Virus record (IMG/VR): IMGVR_UViG_3300033146_002667
Location: 1 to 28,862 of that record
Reading direction: 5' to 3' (one strand)
Source: a virus
Length of the DNA stretch: 28,862 nucleotides
The notes beneath the pieces were generated by a model that did not search any database, was not told the origin of the DNA, and saw only the letters and a list, made by a program, of their open reading frames with translations. The position numbers and the translations under genes were made by a program. Positions 3,756 through 19,094 of the stretch are shown here, piece by piece (positions within the stretch are counted from its first letter, which is position 1; each line of letters begins with the position of its first letter).

Positions 3756-5864
3756 ATGATGAACATATCACCAGGAGTCTATACTAAGATAACTGATCTT
3801 AGTGAATTTTTAACTGACTTACCAGGTACTAATGGATTTGTTCCAATTTTGTCTAAACGTGGTCGAGACAATCAACTAGTATACATTTCAAACGGTACAG
3901 ACTATCTTAAGATTTTTGGAAACCCAAATATTAATACTTTTGGTAAAAATTATGGACAAGGTCCATATATTGCAAAGAATCATTTAACTAATGCTACATC
4001 ATTGTACATTATTAGAGCTTTACCTAACGATGCAACATATTCTAATTTATTTTTTGCATTGCAATCTGTGTCGCCTGAATCCGGTTCTTCTTCCGCTGCA
4101 GTAGCTGAGCCATATAGAACTGAATTAGTAGGGATTAGTTTTTCTAGTATGAATTCAGTTGGCGAATTAGATACTAGATTAAATGAAGATGTAATTACTG
4201 ATTGGGTAAATGAAACCGACACCGGTGGAGCTGGTTATAATAATGGATTTTTATGTTATTTCAGACCTATTGGGAGAGGTGACAGTTATGACGATTTTGC
4301 TGTAAGGATTACTAAACATGTTAACCCATATGCAGATGGGGTGTACAATGTAAACATATATGAAACACAGTCAGATGGAGATGATATTATAGTAGAAACA
4401 TTTGAAGTTTCTTTTAGCACATCTGCAACAGATGATAGCGGCGAATCTATGTTTATAGAAGACGTGATCAATAAATATTCTGCTAATATGAGATGTAAAG
4501 TTAATGAAAGAGCTTTGCAAGTACTAGATGCTGCTCAAGAATTATTTCATAGAAATGAAGGAGAAGATACCTATCCACATAATCCGTATATCACAGAAGA
4601 AGCTGCAGAATATGCAACTATTCGAGATTATATTGAAGATGGTGGAACTGATTTAGGGTATAAAGAATATTTAAAAAATGAAAGATATATTGATTTTGAA
4701 TATGCGAAAGATGCGTTGTCTAATGCGTTGGATGATTTAGCAAATGCGAGAGCTTTGCCACAATCTACAATTAGCGAAATCAATACTAGAAATACTGCCA
4801 TCACTTTGGCTACTCAGAATATTGCAGCAGCTAGATCAAATCTTAATATTGCAAAACAAGAATATGAAGAAGTATTGTTGTTAGATATATTGACTACTAT
4901 GGATCCAGATACATCTACTAATGCGATTGAACCAATTCATCTAAAGAATGGTTCAGATGGATCATTATTTGAGATGGATGAAAGAACAGGTAAACCCATA
5001 TTAAGTACAGTGACTGCTAAACAAATTCTATCTATGGCGTACATGGGATTATTAGAAAATCCTGAAACTGGAAACATTGATGACGAGATACTAAATACTG
5101 ATGATGTATTTTTGGATATAGTATATGATCCAGGATATCCAATTGATGTAAAAACATCAGCAGGATTTCTAGTAGATGAGACTAGACGAGATTGCATGTT
5201 ATTCATGGACAACGGAGACAATGTCTCTTGTGATCAAGCTGAATTGGCTGCAAAAGATCTAATGTTGAATTCGAGATACATAGCAAGATATGAAGGGTAT
5301 AGTACAGTATATGATGTATTTACTGGCAAAGATATCAATGTGTCTCCTATATATCATATGGCTAAATTAGTCCCTTTGAATGATAGAGAGAATGAATTAT
5401 GGTATGCAGTAGCTGGTTTTAATAGAGCAGTAATTGATGATATCAAAGCATTAAGATGGAGTCCAAAGTTAGGGGAACGTGATAAATTATATTTATTACA
5501 ATTAAATCCAATTGTAAGATTTAATGTTGGTTATACTGTATGGAGTCAGTTGACTACTCAAAAACGACCAACAGCATTACAAGATGTAAATGTCATGAGA
5601 TTGGTCCTATATATCAAAAGAATGTTAGAACAATTCTTAAAATATTTTATATTTGAATTTAATGATTCTCAGACATGGACACAGATTCAGGCGGGCGTTA
5701 CTCCGTTCTTGGAAAATATTAAATCTAGAAGAGGATTGAAATATTATAATGTAGAGGTTGGAGCTACTGAATATGAATTTAAAAGAAAAATATGTCATGT
5801 GAATGTAGTATTAAAACCAATGAAAGTAATTGAACGAATTGAATTAAATTTATTTATTAAATAA
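3756..5864 (+). CDS. Tail sheath protein (T4 gp18-like)
   Basis: 702 residues. The sheath polymerises around the tail tube and contracts on infection. The N-terminus ISPGVYTKITD and the C-terminal half are typical of sheath proteins: VFLDIVYDPGYPIDVK then an RRDCMLFMD segment at about 451-485, and the C-terminal WSQLTTQKRPTALQDVNVMRL with a final KICHVNVVLKPMKVIERIELNLFIK-type beta strand. The tube gene follows, as in T4. Two adjacent ATGs (3756, 3759) lie after AAGGA. Unusual: a long, charged, almost purely helical segment at about 250-378 and a Ser-rich linker near 106-115, both apparently insertions into the surface-exposed part. A single transcription terminator follows the gene. Confidence 0.93.
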   Translation: MMNISPGVYTKITDLSEFLTDLPGTNGFVPILSKRGRDNQLVYISNGTDYLKIFGNPNINTFGKNYGQGPYIAKNHLTNATSLYIIRALPNDATYSNLFFALQSVSPESGSSSAAVAEPYRTELVGISFSSMNSVGELDTRLNEDVITDWVNETDTGGAGYNNGFLCYFRPIGRGDSYDDFAVRITKHVNPYADGVYNVNIYETQSDGDDIIVETFEVSFSTSATDDSGESMFIEDVINKYSANMRCKVNERALQVLDAAQELFHRNEGEDTYPHNPYITEEAAEYATIRDYIEDGGTDLGYKEYLKNERYIDFEYAKDALSNALDDLANARALPQSTISEINTRNTAITLATQNIAAARSNLNIAKQEYEEVLLLDILTTMDPDTSTNAIEPIHLKNGSDGSLFEMDERTGKPILSTVTAKQILSMAYMGLLENPETGNIDDEILNTDDVFLDIVYDPGYPIDVKTSAGFLVDETRRDCMLFMDNGDNVSCDQAELAAKDLMLNSRYIARYEGYSTVYDVFTGKDINVSPIYHMAKLVPLNDRENELWYAVAGFNRAVIDDIKALRWSPKLGERDKLYLLQLNPIVRFNVGYTVWSQLTTQKRPTALQDVNVMRLVLYIKRMLEQFLKYFIFEFNDSQTWTQIQAGVTPFLENIKSRRGLKYYNVEVGATEYEFKRKICHVNVVLKPMKVIERIELNLFIK

Positions 5865-5937: not shown

Positions 5938-6675
5938 ATGGGCAACGCATTTTCTAATGTGCTCAATAATCAATTCGATAGGAATTTCGGAGGTACAACT
6001 GTCGGAACAGCTGACCCATATCTTAGCGGATTCCATTTCATTGAATTTTTAGCACTACCAAAAAATTTAAGTAAATATGTAGGCGGAGCAGATGGTAAAA
6101 AAGCAGTATCTAACGGGTTAGATTCTACTCATCTACAAACTATGCTTGCAGGATCATGTGTAGGAGTGACACCTCCAGGTGGCACACTTGAAAAAACAGA
6201 ATTTACAGGACTGGGAGGAATAAAATTTTCTGTACCAACATCTATAAACTATAGTAATTCAATGACTGTTAAATTTTTAGAATTCAGCAGTTTGCCGATT
6301 TTAGCAATATTTAGTGGATGGATCAGAATGATCAGAGATTATAAAACGGGGGTATCTAATTTAAAGGGCGATGATTATACTAAATCCAATTATGCTGGAA
6401 CTATGTTATATTGGACAACTAAACCAGATGGAAAAACAGTAGAATTTTCATCTGCATACACAGGGATGTTTCCTTTGAAAGATCCAATGGATATGTATAC
6501 AGGAGAATTTACATCACAAGATAAAGTTGAAATTGATATCGAGTTTAATGTGGATTACATATTACATGAAGATTGGGTACACGATAAAGCTCAAGGATTG
6601 GCTGATCAACGACATAACACAGGAGTTGATTCTAAAAACAAGAGTCATATGGTGAGCGAAGTACCTACTGCTTAA
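5938..6675 (+). CDS. Tail tube protein (T4 gp19-like)
   Basis: 245 residues; AAGGAG 9 nt before the ATG. It forms the hexameric rings of the inner tail tube through which DNA passes. Supporting features: position straight after the sheath gene, the length, and the C-terminal half YTGMFPLKDPMDMY...KVEIDIEFNVDYILHED, which matches the beta-strand pattern and the conserved P-x-x-D stretch of tube proteins. The N-terminal FHFIEFLALP is also typical (tube proteins start with a strand describing the particle-forming core). Separated from the sheath by a terminator, so it probably has separate expression control, consistent with high copy demand. Confidence 0.85.
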   Translation: MGNAFSNVLNNQFDRNFGGTTVGTADPYLSGFHFIEFLALPKNLSKYVGGADGKKAVSNGLDSTHLQTMLAGSCVGVTPPGGTLEKTEFTGLGGIKFSVPTSINYSNSMTVKFLEFSSLPILAIFSGWIRMIRDYKTGVSNLKGDDYTKSNYAGTMLYWTTKPDGKTVEFSSAYTGMFPLKDPMDMYTGEFTSQDKVEIDIEFNVDYILHEDWVHDKAQGLADQRHNTGVDSKNKSHMVSEVPTA

Positions 6676-6767: not shown

Positions 6768-7577
6768 ATGAGAAAGGCCGGAATAGAAATTATACCAAAA
6801 TTCGAAATAAAATACCCAGAATATTCTTTAACTACACCACAAACTTTATTAGATTTTACTATTCGAAGTTTGACTGTGTCAGAAGAAGAGACTTTAAAGG
6901 CTAGTTTATTGCAACCTAGTCAATTGGCTCAACACTTGAATAAAGTAATATATGCATCATTGGTTAAAAAACCAGAAAATATAAACGACATGGAAACATT
7001 TTTAAAGAATATTACTTTAAAAGATAGAGATGCATTGATGTTCGCATTATACCATGTGACATATAAAGATATACATAATTATGATGTCACATGTCCAAGT
7101 TGTGACACAATTAACAGTGTGAAGGTCAACTTTAATAAATCTTTAGTATTTAATCCATGGAATAAAGATAAATCTATATTAACAAATGAAGAGAAGGTAC
7201 AACTGGAATTAGCAAGTTCAGTGACGATAGTATTAAGGCAACCTACTATATATAATGAAGAAATGTTACTTCGACAATTGGGGCATTCAACAGAGGAAAT
7301 TAGAGAAAAACAAATGTCTTTATTAGGAATTAAACATATATTGATCAATATAGATGAACAGAAAAAACCAGATATCATTGAGGATCGAGATAATATACAA
7401 ACCATATTTAATAAACTTCCGGCATCTGATAAAAAATTGGTAGATAAAAAGTTTTCAGACACATATGATAAATACAAATCTGAAGTCAAAACTATCGTAA
7501 AATGTCAGAAATGTGGAATAGAAAAAGAAACTACTATTGATTTAGTAAGTCAATTTTTTCGCACTATGTTCGAATGA
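6768..7577 (+). CDS. gp26-like tail/baseplate assembly protein (T4_baseplate family), zinc knuckle; zero-frame product
   Basis: 269 residues; AGGAG close to the ATG. The length, overall pattern and the two cysteine pairs CPSC (109-112) and CQKC (246-249), which bracket the variable middle and could share one zinc ion, fit the T4 gp26/baseplate-hub family (Pfam T4_baseplate) as I remember it. T4 gp26 is needed for hub assembly; in many other phages the gene at this place, next to the tube, encodes the tail assembly chaperone. Here it lies between tube and gp25. The gene ends FFRTMFE-stop, and an open frame continues in +1 immediately past it (see next entry), suggesting two products from one gene. 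Confidence 0.65.
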   Translation: MRKAGIEIIPKFEIKYPEYSLTTPQTLLDFTIRSLTVSEEETLKASLLQPSQLAQHLNKVIYASLVKKPENINDMETFLKNITLKDRDALMFALYHVTYKDIHNYDVTCPSCDTINSVKVNFNKSLVFNPWNKDKSILTNEEKVQLELASSVTIVLRQPTIYNEEMLLRQLGHSTEEIREKQMSLLGIKHILINIDEQKKPDIIEDRDNIQTIFNKLPASDKKLVDKKFSDTYDKYKSEVKTIVKCQKCGIEKETTIDLVSQFFRTMFE

Positions 7578-7758
7578 GGATCTAGTAGGTAAGTATGTAG
7601 AAAGATTAGAAGAAGATATATTTTTAACAATGGAATTAGGGAAACAGTCATATACATCAATTATGAATATGCCAGTAGATAGATTGAATAAATATTTAAA
7701 TTGGAAAATAAAATATGATACTGAAATAAATAAAATAAAATCTAATAATTTGCAGTGA
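7561..7758 (+). CDS. Frameshift extension of the gp26-like protein (no start codon of its own)
   Basis: The +1 frame is open from 7549 to the TGA at 7756-7758 and encodes about 65 residues (ALCSNEDLVGKYVERLEED..., ending KIKSNNLQ) that are helical, acidic-to-basic and protein-like. No ATG, GTG or TTG with a Shine-Dalgarno sequence exists before ATG 7630, which would give only 42 residues and lose the conserved-looking start of the helix. The only overlap between frames is 7549-7577, which contains T6C (7554-7560): a P-site UUU can re-pair with UUC in +1, or slip back two bases on the U run. The fusion would be about 329 residues. Analogous to the lambda G/GT and Mu chaperone frameshifts. Alternatives: a recent frameshift mutation or a reinitiated small gene. 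Confidence 0.55.
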   Translation, partial: ALCSNEDLVGKYVERLEEDIFLTMELGKQSYTSIMNMPVDRLNKYLNWKIKYDTEINKIKSNNLQ

Positions 7759-7789: not shown

Positions 7790-8227
7790 ATGACTGATGA
7801 CATTAGAAGATTCCATGAAATAGTTGCAGGTCAATCAGATAATGTCGTAGATTATGCACCAACTTTGACCCCCACTGGGGATTTTAATAAAATCAGTGGA
7901 ATCAATGTTCTGATTAGTTCAATCAGAACATTGCTTCTCACTAATTTAGGATTTTATCCATTTGATCCGACATATGGTTCTACGTTATATAAAAAGGTAT
8001 TTGATCATTTAGATCAAGATACCATTGATGGAATAGAATATGAAGTTAGAGATCGAATATTGGAATTTGATAATAGAGTACATGTCTCGAAGGTGGAAAT
8101 ATTTATCATTGGTAAATCTGAAAAAGGGGTGCAAGTAAATATTTATATTAGCAAAGACAAGATTAAAGGGGTTGTTACTTTGAATTTACCAAATTCGGAT
8201 CAAGAATTCGGATTGGAGTCTGAATAA
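7790..8227 (+). CDS. Baseplate wedge protein, gp25/GPW-like
   Basis: 145 residues. Belongs to the gp25/W family, whose members nucleate sheath polymerisation at the baseplate. The region SGINVLISSIRTLLLTNLGFYPFDPTYGSTL at about 38-68 is the family signature (series of L, then G-x-x-P-x-x-P-x-x-G), followed by a helix-strand tail (IEYEVRDRILEFDNRVHVSKVEI). Usual length is 120-150. Its stop overlaps the start of the next gene in TAATG (8225-8229), so the two are translationally coupled. Confidence 0.88.
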   Translation: MTDDIRRFHEIVAGQSDNVVDYAPTLTPTGDFNKISGINVLISSIRTLLLTNLGFYPFDPTYGSTLYKKVFDHLDQDTIDGIEYEVRDRILEFDNRVHVSKVEIFIIGKSEKGVQVNIYISKDKIKGVVTLNLPNSDQEFGLESE

Positions 8228-8941: not shown

Positions 8942-8955
8942 ATTTGATATATAAT

Positions 8956-11900
8956 ATGCTAGATGACACATTAGACAATTTTAATAAAATTATTTCAAAG
9001 AAAGTTAAAATATACGGGTCCAGAGAATCTATTCGATCACAGTTGACTGAATTTGCACAAGAATATTTAGAATTAAAAGCTGTAGATTTATATAAAACAA
9101 GTTTCTTATCTTATATAATAGACATTTTATCAATCCTTACAGCGAATCAGATGTTCTACACATCTAGTATATACAAAGAATTTTTCTTTGTTACTGCACA
9201 ATTCAATGAATCAGTTAGTAATCTAGCGAATTGGATAGGATACAAGCCACCACAAGCAATTCCGTCCAGAGTGGATGTAGTATTTGAATTACCTCTCACT
9301 TTTTCATCTGCTGCTGTCACATTCTCAATTCCATCAGAATTTAAAGTGACAGCATCTCATATTCCTTTTATGATCGACAGTAATCCGATTTCAAATGTAG
9401 CAGCCACATTTGAAAGAAAAGCAGACAATGAAGGGAAAGCATTGGAGATTTCTGCAACAGTATTACCGGACACAACTGTACAAATTATTAATAATAACGC
9501 AGTTACTGTTCGAGATAGCAATGGATTTTATAGACCAGTCACAACTACTGAATCTCGAGATAAAATAACTTTCGCTTTACCATTTATTCAACATGAAAAA
9601 ATTAATGAGCAATTTATTATTCCTACTTCATTAGAATTTTATCAATTTTATTCTAAAAAGGTAAAATTTAACGGGATGGTATCCCAAATTAAAGTATTTA
9701 TAAAAGAACCAATTGGGGGCGAAACATTAAATGTTGAAGATTCATCTAGTTATAATTTTAATGAATTTGATGAATGGGTAGAAGCAGAAAATGGATTATA
9801 TACATTAACGTCAGTATCTAAGCAATTTGTATGGACATCTACTATCAATGAAGGCGAGTTGCATTTTGGAAACGGTATATTGGGTAGACAACCCGCACCT
9901 GGTTCTATCATCATGTTATCATTGTATATCACTAAAGGATCGGATGGAAAAGTTATACCAATGAGTATATCTAAAGGTGACCCGTTATATTATAAAGCTA
10001 TTGATGCTTCCACTGGTTCGTTGACTAATGTTAGTACTAAATTACATAGAATTTCATATAAAGTATACAACCCATCAATGTGTACAGGCGGATCTAATAC
10101 CCCAAATAACGAAGAAATAAAACAAAACGCAATAGTAAATCTAAGAAGTAAAAAAAGATTAGTTTCTGGCTCAGATTATTATGATATCAATACTATAATG
10201 GGATCAAATTTTCCAGTATCAGAAGCAACTCCAATTTTAAAAAGAAGTGATATCAAAATTAATGAAATTATGACTTTTATGAAATTGATGTACCATGACA
10301 GTAATAATTTGCCCGAAATTGTCCCAACGAGAAACGCTTATGTATCTTTATTAAATGTGGTATATAACAGAGATGGAAAATTTACTATACCTAGAAAATC
10401 AAAATTAATCATCGATAATAATATATATGAATCTATATTCAACATTACATTAAATCAAAGAACCAATGTAGCTACCTATGATTATGTATTAAGTGACGTA
10501 TATGATTCCCCTGCAGCACTAACAATAGATCAACCTTATAATATATCTGCTTTGTACATAGGACAGAGTTACATACCGATCACTACTGTAGATTTTCACA
10601 TTCCAATGACACCAGTACATGATTATGATTTCATTGAAGGATCTATTTCTTCCTCTGCTGGAGATAACAGCTCCTCTAGTGAATTATCCTCGTCTACTGA
10701 ATACATTGAAGTCCCAAGCGAAGATATAAGATATCCATTGATTATTAAAATTAATGTAGATCATATCCCTTCTGCAGAAATTAGTTTTTTTAGAATTAAA
10801 GCAGTAACTAGATGGGGATCTAATCAAGAGTATATTGGGGACGACATAATAAAGCCAGATATAAATTTTTCAACTGATATCAATGTCACGTATAATAATT
10901 TTACTTTAACTATTCCAGATTATCGAGAAGTTCCAGTGGGATTACAAAGAATAGAATATGAAGTACATGGATTAGTATTTGATGAAGCATCAGGCGAGGA
11001 CACATGGATCCCGTTACATAGATATTTCACTGATGTAGTAATAAGACAGAACTTGGATGATGTGATGATCAGCACTATGACTTCTACCAGACGATGGGAC
11101 GGAATATGCCATGATGACACTAAAACAGTAATTCACAATGTTCCAGTAATTTTATCTAATTATATAGATGATGGTGCAGGAGGAGGAGTAATCAACACTC
11201 CAAATCAAAAAGATTTTGAGTTGACAGTAATACAGAATTTATTAAATAATCTATATATGGATAATAAGCGGATGCTTACTGATTTTATTAATGTTAAAGT
11301 TCCTGATACACATGGAAAATTTTATAATTTAAAATACAACAAACAGGACCATGAAATAGTTAGTAGATATCAGACACCGTTTGGATTCACTGCTCCTGCA
11401 GGGATCAAACAGATGATATATACTATATATGGAAATGACAATGAAACATTAAACCCAGGATGTCAAGGAGATTATTATGACTCAGGAGACACTTATAATG
11501 ATGAACCAATATATCGTCAAAATATTGGCACATTCGCATTGTTTTATACAGGCAGCACATGGGTTATTAGTGATACTATTGATTCAGCAGAGATAGGATA
11601 TAGGTGGGTGACATCAACTCCATCAATTATTACAGGAACATATAATGCAATGACTAGCACAGATGGAAAAGTTACTTCTGGTGTTGCAAACATAAAACAT
11701 TTTGAATTTGATTTATCCGCTGGATCAAAATATATAATAAATTCTATTGATCCTAATCATCATTTAATAAATAGACCAGAATTAATTGGTTATATTGCTG
11801 GTCGAACTGCTTTTGATGATTGGATTATAATTGAACCAATACGAGATATGTACGTATCAATTAAAGACGAATATGATATAAATGATGATAATCAAGTGGT

Positions 11901-12264
11901 GGTATGGACTGGAAAAAATTGGAAAAACACACAAGATTTTGATATACCTATGAAAATTTATGCAAGAATACGGGTATCCAATGTAAGTAATGTAAGTAAT
12001 GATGCATTGATTGCTGACGTCAAGGAAAAACTTTTAGAATATTTTGCACCAAAATTTGGAGTAAATAAAACATTAGATAGATCAGAAATAATTCGTGTTA
12101 TTAGAGGTACAGAGTTTGTAACTTATTGTGATCTAATCTCGCCAGAAGTCGATATTAGATATACTTACAGTTTAAAAGATTTATCTGAAAAACAATTATT
12201 AGATTATACACCGCAATATGTTGGGTTTACTGAAGACACTATTCATATTGATATTTTGAGGTAA
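8956..12264 (+). CDS. Baseplate wedge protein, gp6-like, oversized with inserted domain
   Basis: 1102 residues from ATG 8956 (a TTG at 8944 would add four, but it lies only 1-2 nt from AAAAGGA, while the ATG is 13 nt away). gp6 forms the wedge ring that organises the baseplate. The N-terminus (LKAVDLYKTSFLSYIIDIL, then SVSNLANWIGYKP at about 80-92) and the J-like middle (FHFGNGILGRQPAPGS type motif near 305) are typical of gp6/gpJ proteins. T4 gp6 is about 660 residues; here the surplus includes a Ser-rich linker at about 562-582 (SSSSELSSSTE, DNA 10639-10701) followed by a beta-rich Ig/FN3-like section to about 700. The C-terminal part LLEYFAPKFGVNKTLDRSEIIRVIRG is the normal gpJ-type ending. 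Confidence 0.82.
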   Translation: MLDDTLDNFNKIISKKVKIYGSRESIRSQLTEFAQEYLELKAVDLYKTSFLSYIIDILSILTANQMFYTSSIYKEFFFVTAQFNESVSNLANWIGYKPPQAIPSRVDVVFELPLTFSSAAVTFSIPSEFKVTASHIPFMIDSNPISNVAATFERKADNEGKALEISATVLPDTTVQIINNNAVTVRDSNGFYRPVTTTESRDKITFALPFIQHEKINEQFIIPTSLEFYQFYSKKVKFNGMVSQIKVFIKEPIGGETLNVEDSSSYNFNEFDEWVEAENGLYTLTSVSKQFVWTSTINEGELHFGNGILGRQPAPGSIIMLSLYITKGSDGKVIPMSISKGDPLYYKAIDASTGSLTNVSTKLHRISYKVYNPSMCTGGSNTPNNEEIKQNAIVNLRSKKRLVSGSDYYDINTIMGSNFPVSEATPILKRSDIKINEIMTFMKLMYHDSNNLPEIVPTRNAYVSLLNVVYNRDGKFTIPRKSKLIIDNNIYESIFNITLNQRTNVATYDYVLSDVYDSPAALTIDQPYNISALYIGQSYIPITTVDFHIPMTPVHDYDFIEGSISSSAGDNSSSSELSSSTEYIEVPSEDIRYPLIIKINVDHIPSAEISFFRIKAVTRWGSNQEYIGDDIIKPDINFSTDINVTYNNFTLTIPDYREVPVGLQRIEYEVHGLVFDEASGEDTWIPLHRYFTDVVIRQNLDDVMISTMTSTRRWDGICHDDTKTVIHNVPVILSNYIDDGAGGGVINTPNQKDFELTVIQNLLNNLYMDNKRMLTDFINVKVPDTHGKFYNLKYNKQDHEIVSRYQTPFGFTAPAGIKQMIYTIYGNDNETLNPGCQGDYYDSGDTYNDEPIYRQNIGTFALFYTGSTWVISDTIDSAEIGYRWVTSTPSIITGTYNAMTSTDGKVTSGVANIKHFEFDLSAGSKYIINSIDPNHHLINRPELIGYIAGRTAFDDWIIIEPIRDMYVSIKDEYDINDDNQVVVWTGKNWKNTQDFDIPMKIYARIRVSNVSNVSNDALIADVKEKLLEYFAPKFGVNKTLDRSEIIRVIRGTEFVTYCDLISPEVDIRYTYSLKDLSEKQLLDYTPQYVGFTEDTIHIDILR

Positions 12265-15215: not shown

Positions 15216-18200
15216 TTAGCCTCCTATTGTAAATTGTTGAGCAGACAATGAATAGAGAGACGATATGTCATCAGATCCACTATGATTAGTAGTGTGATTG
15301 ACAGATGAATTATTCTCAGTATGCATTGAATTGTTTTGTACTATTGTCTGTGCAGCATTGGCAAGCACTTGTTTCGTTGCATCTGTCATATATTTTATTG
15401 CTTTGACAAGTGGGGAATTAGCATCACTAAATTTATTTTTTTGATTTTCCACCAAAGATTCAGCATTTTTAAAAGTTTTTTGTACAAAATTATTTGATTT
15501 TTTTCCGACTTCTTGTACATATTCTTTTGATGATTGATCAGATACAGCATGATATATATTGGATCCTAATTTATCTTGTATCTTCTTCGCATATTCTTTT
15601 GATGATTGATCAGCTACAGCACTAATGTTATCTGTAATATATTTAGTAGTAATATTCGCTTGTTTATTATTTCCTACTAAATCAAATATGTCTCCCCCTG
15701 TATTTTCTATCATTAAACGCAATGCTTGTAAATTGGTATTATTTCCTAATTTATCAGTAAATATTTTTTCTATTTTATCAAAATTGATAGCATTTGTTAA
15801 TTGATTTTTGAACGGTAACTTTGAACTCAATTTAGATATAAAAGACTTATCTGTAATTTTTGATTTTAGCGTATCTATTATAGCTTTTCCTTTTTCCATT
15901 GACATCTTGGATGCTGTTTGATTGTACAATTTTAATGCCCATTCTTTTCCTTTTCCAATCAGAAATCCGCCTTTGCCGTCAACAGCAGACATCAGAATCA
16001 ATTTACCTTGAATTACTTGATCTTTTAAATACTTTAATCTTTCATGATTATCAATATATTCTTGTGTCCCATTTTTCTTCAATAAATACCACTGACCAGA
16101 AATTTCTATCAATGTGCTTCCTTTAGATACAATGTGATCTTTAGTAGATTGCAAAGTATTCTTTACATAAGAAGAAAATTGGGAAAGTTTACTATTTTTT
16201 CCATGTAACAATTCATTTTTTCTTTTTAAAGCTTTTTGATATGCTTTACTAGTTTTTGCATTGTTTCTATTTTTAAACATATCTGTGGCAGGGGATTCAC
16301 TTCCGTAATAAATTCCACCCGCAAGTGCCCCTAATGTGTCAGGTATACCAGTTACTAAATTTCCCCATTTTTTATGGTATAACCCTTTCATCTTTTCCCA
16401 TGCTACTGATCCTGCTGCACCGATTCCTCTCCCTACTCTTCCTGTCGGATCTGCGAGTGCAGTATATATGTATTCTTTATTTTTATTTTTTTTATCTATG
16501 GCTTGTGCATGCTTAACTAATTCCATATATTTGGGGTCAGATTCAAGGATAGCTTTTTGTCTTGCTTGTTTTTCAGTTATTTGCTTATTTTGTTCTTTCG
16601 TATTTTTTGATTTTGATGACGATTGATTTTTTATAATTTCATCATATGCATTATGCATTTGAATGATGTTAGGACGTTTTCCATATTTTTTAACATGTTC
16701 CTTCCATTCTTTTGGATTATTTCTCGCATACTGTATAATTTTTTGTGTGTCAGAGTTGAATTTTTCTCTCTTTAATTGTTCTGGATCTATATCTTTTTTA
16801 TCCCCGTATAATGTTCTTAGTCCTTTAATTGAATCTTTAATGAATGGAATTTTTTCTAATAGGTCAAGAATTCCGTTTTTCAATTTTCCTGGTAATGATT
16901 TTAACATATCCATTAATGAATCAAATCCAGTCTTCAAAGAAGTTCCTATGGTTGCTGGCAATTTTTTAACAAAATCGACAGCTTTCCACACAAATTCCCC
17001 GACTGAGTCACCGAACCATCGAACTTCTTTGAATTTATTATATAGAAATTTTCCAAATTGATGGCCGGCAACAAAAGATCCAAGTACCAAAGATGCTTTT
17101 CCTAATAATGATGCCATTGGTCCTATTAAATTTTTTCCAATTTTGACAAGAGGAAGCAATTTAGTTGCTAGTTTAGTTCCTAATTTTTTTATTGAATTAT
17201 AAATGAGAGCACCCAATGATCCTTGTACCAGAACTGTACCAATTGCCATTCCTGCATTTTCCGCCTTTTGAAATAAAGAATTGGCTCCTTTCTCAGCCTT
17301 TTCTGTGGCAGATTTAGTTTTTTTCCATATTCTGCTCCCGCCTGATTTTGCTTTTTCCCATAAACTTCTTTTATCTTGTTTTTTATCTAACTCAAGTTGG
17401 GCTTGTTCTATGTTCGCATCGGTTTTATTTGCCTTAGTATTTATCTTAGTGAATAATAATAACTTTGTTAATAAATTATTAGTTTTTGATTGAGAGGTCG
17501 GAAACTGAATGATGTTTGATTCATCTTTTTTGGGTTTATTAAATTTCTGCTTAATGTTATTTATTTTTGATCCAATATATGATTTGCCTTCAGTGAATAA
17601 ATATTTTAAACCTGTAGCAGGAGCCCCATATTTTAACTCATCAGATCTTCGCTTAGATCCAAATCCTTTTTCATTTTTATATGTTACTTCTTTTTCTAAT
17701 TTAAATTTTGTTAGAATTTTATTTAATTGACTTGTGATTTGTTGCCCATATATTCTTGTCCATTCATATATTCCTACAGTTGCGCTAGCTGTAGTCCTAG
17801 CCGGATCACCTTTTACAGTAACATGTCTCCCATATCTTAGTCCTTTTCCTCTTATCATAAATGCGCCAGTATTTTCACTTCCTCCAGATGCCCATCGCAA
17901 CGATGCATTAATGGCTTTTGCACTTCCTCCTATTACTGTTTTAGGGACTGATACAGCCTTACTAAGTGCCCATTTGGTAGCATTTGCAGATGCTTCCATA
18001 AATGGCATAGTGGCTAAAATGTTTTTATATGTAAGATTCAATCGTTCCGATAATGAATATTTTTTATTTCCACCTATGGATCTGCGAAGTTCTTTTAGTT
18101 CTTCGATTATTTGTCCACCTTCCGTACCAGCAAATGATTCTCCTGGTCTAGTCACCATTCCTCTCCACATTTTTCTAATCATAGTAGATTCTGCAAAAGA

Positions 18201-19094
18201 TTTTCTTGCTGCAATATTTGATAATTCTGCTGTTTTTAAAGTTCGATCTAATTTATTATCCTTGGTAAATTTCTTAATAAGTTTCCCAAACATCAATGTT
18301 TGTTTCTCAATTTGTTTACCTTCTAATGAGAATGAACCTTTTCTGTTGAATTTATTGTTTGTGATGGTATCCGTAGATTCTGTTGCTTCTGCAATTCTTT
18401 TTAAATATGCTGTCTGGACATCCACTACTCTAGATGGTGTAATTTTTTCATTATTATGAACTATTGCTAATCCACCTTTTTCTACTATCCCTCCAGTTGC
18501 CAAATGAGGAAATCTTGAAACATCTGGTTTTAGTAAATTATACTCTTGTGCGGTTAATGGGGTTTTTGATAATCTCCTAGCTACCATAGTCATTAATTGA
18601 ATATTAGTTTTTCTTAGCAAATCAATAGCTGCAATAATGCCTTTAGAAGAAGCTGCAGATTTGGATGTTTCTTTTAGTAATTGCTTATTTACTGATCCTT
18701 GTGTTTTAAACGAATCAGTTAGAGTCTTAGATGATAAAGATAATCTTTTATGCAGATTAATATTCTCTTTTTTCTGATGAGAAAAGAAGGTTTTTGTAGA
18801 ATCTAGTAGATGAGATGATCCCAATTTAAGAGATTTATAAGCAGAAGTTGCAGCGGTTTTTATTTCCCCTTTTGATTTTTCTAAGATTTTATCAGTAAAG
18901 GATCCTAATATAGGATTAATTCCTGCTACTATAGATCCGGCGAATTTAGTCATATCCACATTGATGTCATCTGTAATCCCACTCATGACTGAACCAGCCG
19001 CTTTCACTGTTCCGTGCGTAATAGATAAAGTAAGTTTTTTAATTGCTTCTAATAACTGCGAATTAGAATCTGATGGAGGGAGATTGTTAGCCAT
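15216..19094 (-). CDS. Tail tape measure protein
   Basis: 1292 residues. It fills the tube and sets tail length. Evidence: large size, mostly helical Lys/Ser/Ala/Asn composition, the tape-measure motif ATGGIVEKGGLAIVHNNEKI at about 199-218 (GGxVxxxGxAxVxxxE type), and a hydrophobic stretch at about 614-683 (IGTVLVQGSLGALIY, then LVLGSFVAGHQFG) that may insert into the host membrane at DNA delivery. At about 1.5 A per residue the length predicts a tail near 190 nm. It sits in the order hub - x - tape measure - cap, as in T4. Start ATG is 14 nt after AAAGGA. Confidence 0.85.
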   Translation of the reverse strand: MANNLPPSDSNSQLLEAIKKLTLSITHGTVKAAGSVMSGITDDINVDMTKFAGSIVAGINPILGSFTDKILEKSKGEIKTAATSAYKSLKLGSSHLLDSTKTFFSHQKKENINLHKRLSLSSKTLTDSFKTQGSVNKQLLKETSKSAASSKGIIAAIDLLRKTNIQLMTMVARRLSKTPLTAQEYNLLKPDVSRFPHLATGGIVEKGGLAIVHNNEKITPSRVVDVQTAYLKRIAEATESTDTITNNKFNRKGSFSLEGKQIEKQTLMFGKLIKKFTKDNKLDRTLKTAELSNIAARKSFAESTMIRKMWRGMVTRPGESFAGTEGGQIIEELKELRRSIGGNKKYSLSERLNLTYKNILATMPFMEASANATKWALSKAVSVPKTVIGGSAKAINASLRWASGGSENTGAFMIRGKGLRYGRHVTVKGDPARTTASATVGIYEWTRIYGQQITSQLNKILTKFKLEKEVTYKNEKGFGSKRRSDELKYGAPATGLKYLFTEGKSYIGSKINNIKQKFNKPKKDESNIIQFPTSQSKTNNLLTKLLLFTKINTKANKTDANIEQAQLELDKKQDKRSLWEKAKSGGSRIWKKTKSATEKAEKGANSLFQKAENAGMAIGTVLVQGSLGALIYNSIKKLGTKLATKLLPLVKIGKNLIGPMASLLGKASLVLGSFVAGHQFGKFLYNKFKEVRWFGDSVGEFVWKAVDFVKKLPATIGTSLKTGFDSLMDMLKSLPGKLKNGILDLLEKIPFIKDSIKGLRTLYGDKKDIDPEQLKREKFNSDTQKIIQYARNNPKEWKEHVKKYGKRPNIIQMHNAYDEIIKNQSSSKSKNTKEQNKQITEKQARQKAILESDPKYMELVKHAQAIDKKNKNKEYIYTALADPTGRVGRGIGAAGSVAWEKMKGLYHKKWGNLVTGIPDTLGALAGGIYYGSESPATDMFKNRNNAKTSKAYQKALKRKNELLHGKNSKLSQFSSYVKNTLQSTKDHIVSKGSTLIEISGQWYLLKKNGTQEYIDNHERLKYLKDQVIQGKLILMSAVDGKGGFLIGKGKEWALKLYNQTASKMSMEKGKAIIDTLKSKITDKSFISKLSSKLPFKNQLTNAINFDKIEKIFTDKLGNNTNLQALRLMIENTGGDIFDLVGNNKQANITTKYITDNISAVADQSSKEYAKKIQDKLGSNIYHAVSDQSSKEYVQEVGKKSNNFVQKTFKNAESLVENQKNKFSDANSPLVKAIKYMTDATKQVLANAAQTIVQNNSMHTENNSSVNHTTNHSGSDDISSLYSLSAQQFTIGG
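15519..15621. repeat. Two 31-bp near-identical direct repeats inside the tape measure gene
   Basis: 15519-15549 and 15591-15621 differ at one base; 72-bp period, in frame, encoding AV(A/S)DQSSKEY twice. A small in-frame duplication in the C-terminal part of the tape measure. Confidence 0.7.

Follow-up and report, generated by a model that had tools for sequence, protein, structure and literature searches.

A conserved UUU-CGN site and a probable +1 frameshift in the gp26-like tail assembly chaperone gene of uncultivated contractile-tailed phages

The question raised by this locus is how a gp26-like gene whose reading frame stops at 7577 relates to a second, protein-like frame that is open across and beyond that stop. 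The locus lies in a 28.9 kb contig of an uncultivated virus (an IMG/VR record), the whole of which is referred to here as the window, and its carrier is a contractile-tailed phage. Profile matches identify a sheath-like gene (3756-5864) and a baseplate wedge gene (8944-12264). The gp26-like gene itself (6768-7577, plus strand; 269 aa, with two CxxC zinc motifs) has a tail tube-like gene directly 5' of it (5938-6675, plus strand; phrog_45 tail tube, E 4e-8), while a gp25-like baseplate wedge gene (7790-8227, plus strand; PF04965, E 2.5e-9) lies directly 3' of the second frame. Elsewhere in the window, two adjoining tail-collar fibre genes (126-941 and 951-2003) share their PHROG family matches and appear to be tandem paralogues.

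The coordinates and frame logic of the first-pass annotation were confirmed. The 0 frame ends TTT TTT CGC ACT ATG TTC GAA TGA, with its stop TGA at 7575-7577, and in the +1 frame 7549-7758 forms an open stretch of 69 codons, counted from stop to stop. In the shift window, which reads CAA TTT TTT CGC, the T6 run occupies 7554-7559 and the C following it 7560. The candidate shift site is UUU UUU CGC (7554-7562, plus strand), at which the P-site UUU (7557-7559) can re-pair one base on as UUC (7558-7560) with the rare Arg codon CGC in the A-site. The stretch 7557-7577 (plus strand) is read in both frames, as RTMFE-stop in frame 0 and as ALCSNE in frame +1, and the +1 extension (TAC-C; 7561-7758, plus strand) comprises 65 codons and the stop TGA. 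CGC accounts for only 5 of about 8300 codons in the window (0.60 per 1000), the +1 codon GCA is used at 27.7 per 1000, and a TTT codon is followed by CGN in only 2 of 287 cases. As expected of a +1 frameshift site, a P-site codon that can re-pair one base on, within an invariant UUU-C, is thus combined with a rare next codon, whose decoding, judging from this rarity, is presumably slow.

A first scan of viral contigs returned 16 relatives and the main profile scan 80 loci, which together with the window form the counts of 81 used below; a second profile scan also gave 80 loci, partly from the same contigs as the main scan. No relatives were found in the genome-contig collection, and a viral-contig search with the extension alone gave no matches, the extension being too short for exact patterns. 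All 81 loci combine a 0-frame stop, UUU-CGN and an extension in the same +1 frame, i.e. the layout of a frameshifted chaperone gene, in which a short ORF is continued in another frame at a conserved site. The second scan gave UUU-CGN with a +1 extension in 80 of 80 loci, bringing the number of distinct extensions over both scans to 109. The distance from UUU-CGN to the 0-frame stop is 18-72 nt, mostly 21-27 nt (81 loci), the long overlap of 72 nt being found in a single relative (L046:830-906). The Arg codon at the site is CGT in 31 loci, CGC in 29, CGA in 15 and CGG in 6, hence always CGN, while AGA and AGG make up 575 of 750 elsewhere in the same genes; likewise, Phe at the site is always UUU, while UUC makes up 204 of 804 elsewhere, all these codon counts being drawn from related, non-independent sequences. 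Past the 0-frame stop, the median open length is 61 codons in the +1 frame, compared to 3 and 4 in the other two frames, and the conservation of the extension is far beyond chance. Full-length extensions measure 58-84 aa, and three further ones are cut off by contig ends. In L064 (3778 onward) a frame break, from a local mutation or a read error, leaves an extension of only 43 aa.

Purifying selection acts on the extension in its +1 reading alone, with a median dN/dS of 0.13 compared to 1.2 and 2.2 in the other frames (pairs of moderate divergence), which is the protein-level selection expected of the C-terminal part of a frameshifted chaperone. It is predicted to form a small helical domain (AlphaFold2 pLDDT 88; helices 8-29, 33-37 and 41-66).

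Several other explanations for the second frame have to be weighed against a +1 shift. Since the window is a single uncultivated contig, the frame break could have been a sequencing error or local mutation; however, the main scan showed the identical break in 80 further contigs, by which this explanation is already refuted and its probability is practically nil. The extension could also be a separate small protein, translated from its own or a coupled start, and small ORFs are indeed annotated at the same place in cultured relatives (e.g. the 'gp51' of phiM9 and S-RIM8). The start codons argue against this: ATG, GTG and TTG are absent from the first 15 extension codons in 58 of the 81 homologues, a Shine-Dalgarno-like 4-mer is found upstream in 0 of the 50 homologues that have an ATG at extension position 23, and the stretch preceding the commonest ATG is constrained (pN/pS 0.29), i.e. 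the codons before it are themselves under purifying selection. Judging from these sequences, the extension appears to have no usable or conserved start, as had been supposed from the window alone, and a separate protein seems most improbable. No relative was seen with the protein in one continuous frame.

It had been left undecided whether the T6C run would serve a +1 re-pairing or a slip of two bases back. A -2 shift on T6C, which would lead to the same extension, is used by phage Mu (PMC5009743), and the UUUUUUC run present in most loci would permit re-pairing of tRNA-Phe two bases back. The alignment of relatives, which had been suggested as a check, bore out the frame break and the protein-level conservation of the extension, but not the T6 run: in 11 of the 81 loci the codon before UUU is TTC, TTA or TTG, leaving only T3 at the site. 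In these loci the slipped P-site tRNA would be mismatched, yet the C after UUU is invariant there as well. The same 11 loci bear on polymerase slippage, whereby a mixture of mRNAs would be produced on the T-run; T6 is present in most loci, but a run of six bases is short for such slippage, and T3 is all that these relatives offer. Because T6 is absent from these loci, both the -2 slip and polymerase slippage would be excluded as general mechanisms; for the window group the former is very unlikely (if slightly less so than a separate protein) and the latter exceedingly so. UUU-C is retained in relatives without T6, and it therefore seems that the direction is +1 rather than -2. The mechanism that remains, re-pairing of tRNA-Phe from UUU to UUC in front of an Arg CGN codon, is supported by the pattern of codons at the site.

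Of the elements that may stimulate +1 shifting, neither kind was found: the RNA downstream of the site folds worse than its shuffles (z +1.76), the alignment of relatives yields 0 pairs, and no Shine-Dalgarno-like element was seen by eye upstream of the site. Stimulators of either type are not universal at +1 sites, but with neither of them found the efficiency of the shift could be low. The rarest Arg codons are CGC and CGG, and since many relatives carry CGT or CGA at the site, a rare next codon may not be what drives the shift throughout the group. A UUU-CGN +1 site that has been kept in more than 100 distinct sequences, without visible RNA structure, would be a clean natural example of codon-pair-driven +1 shifting.

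The short form belongs to the T4 gp26/gp51 family. It matches PF12322 (T4_baseplate) at E 4.5e-13 and 49.8 bits (curated cut-off 24.5), residues 17-265 aligning with positions 2-219 of the 219-position profile, i.e. over the full domain. Short form and extension were folded separately in AlphaFold2, each as plain translation. The TAC-N model (pLDDT 87) matches many gp26-type baseplate hub proteins in a viral structure library (E down to 3e-15), as well as viral proteins of 389 and 475 aa, sizes that correspond to the BpSp and phiR1-37 homologues. Fold searches of the PDB gave no significant match; the one in which the known chaperone fold (HK97, 2ob9) came 16th, with E 1.7 and a target-length TM-score of 0.41, had no match at E 0.001 or better. 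A PDB sequence search with the relatives' alignment gave no matches. Eight contigs of the window's group (55-244 kb, incomplete) showed no further PF12322 gene; because only one such gene appears in contigs of up to 244 kb, a separate long-form gene as in T4 is unlikely in this group.

Taken together, the gene is in all likelihood a tail assembly chaperone gene of the T4 gp26/gp51 family, in which a +1 shift gives TAC-N and TAC-NC that would act together in assembly; that it yields a short and a long chaperone form, through a +1 slip by some of the ribosomes, is very probable on the comparative evidence. Most ribosomes would terminate at 7577, producing the 269-aa TAC-N. Others would pause at CAA-UUU-UUU-CGC owing to the rarity of CGC as the next codon; the peptidyl-tRNA-Phe, then on the second UUU, could move one base on to UUC, its better-matched codon. 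Translation would continue in the +1 frame to 7758, giving TAC-NC, a long form of 329 residues with the additional helical domain. The two forms may then cooperate in tail assembly, in the loading of the tube and of the tape measure or hub, a role that is taken from the family. The programmed shift with products of 269 and about 329 residues, as first proposed from the sequence of the window, is therefore strongly supported by its conservation in more than 80 relatives.

The proposed position of the gene, between tail tube and tape measure as is typical of chaperones, holds on one side only. The tube-like gene lies directly upstream, but on the other side comes gp25, which follows the extension in 74 of the 77 loci where gp25 was matched. 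The probable tape measure gene (15216-19094, minus strand; 1292 aa), so assigned from a Lys-rich, helix-forming composition and a weak match to phrog_15478 tape measure (E 0.0027), is on the opposite strand to the tube and chaperone genes and is not adjacent to the gp26-like gene. As T4 gp26/gp51 and the PBS1-type genes also deviate, this location does not seem to be a strict requirement for the family.

The first-pass annotation regarded frameshifting in a T4-type gp26 gene as an extension of the chaperone idea, but this is not new. In an earlier review T4 was still given as the exception (PMC5009743), whereas Vladimirov, Gautam and Davidson (2022), as summarised in papers that cite them (PMC10885494, PMC12846349), are reported to have described the two chaperone forms in T4-like phages as arising from separate genes or by frameshifting, with gp26/gp51 of T4 as TAC-N/TAC-NC. 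Both T4 proteins are PF12322 members, as is the window gene, and gp51 consists of a gp26-like domain with a C-terminal extension. The match to phrog_150 (baseplate hub) spans positions 13-280 in T4 gp51, 14-235 in T4 gp26, 8-235 in the window's short form and 8-269 in its fused product (with the score rising from 48.8 to 53.7 bits upon fusion); in its layout gp51 therefore corresponds to a long form, and gp26 to a short one. The extension profile alone gives no significant match to the C-terminus of T4 gp51 (E 0.18) or to the -1 extensions of T4-like phages, and the link between extension and gp51 therefore rests on full-length alignments, in which the long-form profile matches the fused -1 long forms of T4-like phages at E 2.3e-12 and those of PBS1-type phages at E 6.9e-21. 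An alignment of distant T4-like gp26 proteins contained no stretch conserved enough to serve as query. In T4, gp26 precedes gp25, likewise in the window, but where T4 relies on two separate genes without a shift, the window has a single gene and a shift.

The new element is the direction of the shift, U6C being used in another phase and with the opposite sign to the cultured relatives. A -1 extension is carried by the cultured phages phiM9, S-RIM8, OLIVR6, 65.2 and Cygsa01, as well as by the jumbo phages BpSp, PBS1, AR9, S6, phiR1-37 and Machias. Cyanophage-type loci have a -1 extension in 80 of 80 cases, at a site xxU UUU UUC. A U6 run is present in all 80 of these loci and in S-RIM8, 65.2, OLIVR6 and phiM9 (U6C in all except phiM9, which has U6G), and in the cyanophage-type loci, phiM9, OLIVR6 and 65.2 the short form stops just past the run and the extension overlaps it in another frame, as in the window. 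The phase differs: with xxU UUU UUC as the 0 frame the extension is -1, whereas in the window group the 0 frame is UUU UUU CGN and the extension +1. The closest cultured relatives, by sequence and by predicted fold, are PBS1, AR9, S6, phiR1-37, Machias and BpSp, whose extension is homologous (E 2.7e-4) but in the -1 frame, compared to +1 in the window, and in PBS1/AR9-type phages it is annotated as a separate small hypothetical gene. We infer that the U6C run is homologous between the -1 and +1 groups, as opposed to a convergent choice of slippery run. On balance, we lean slightly towards a reversal of direction within one chaperone family (between -1 and +1), in which U6C was kept, only the phase changed and both forms are still made, the +1 group being a large uncultivated myovirus lineage.

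Small annotated -1 ORFs follow gp26-like 'hypothetical proteins' in BpSp, PBS1, S6, phiR1-37, Machias and AR9 (L019, L090, L091, L092, L093 and L095, respectively), and in these PBS1/AR9-type jumbo phages they are probably frameshift extensions, not genes of their own. ORFs annotated as 'gp51' 'baseplate hub assembly catalyst', which lie -1 to gp26 (L085:4654-4833, L086:4732-4869, L087:4309-4482 and L089:4720-4860), also seem to belong to a long form made by frameshifting. This implies that small 'gp51' or hypothetical ORFs beside gp26 in many deposited genomes would be parts of frameshifted genes.

The finding would enlarge the set of phages with frameshifted tail chaperones by a large uncultivated group, and the contrast between -1 and +1 suggests that selection keeps the ratio of short to long form, not the route to it. 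The chaperone genes of Lambda (gpG/gpGT), Mu, P2 and HSTV-2 likewise lie near the tail genes and each yield two products, a short and a long one, with a -2 shift in Mu and a proposed +1 shift in HSTV-2 (PMC5009743). Unlike in these systems, the window gene is followed by gp25 and not by the tape measure, and the likeness to them is drawn from layout.
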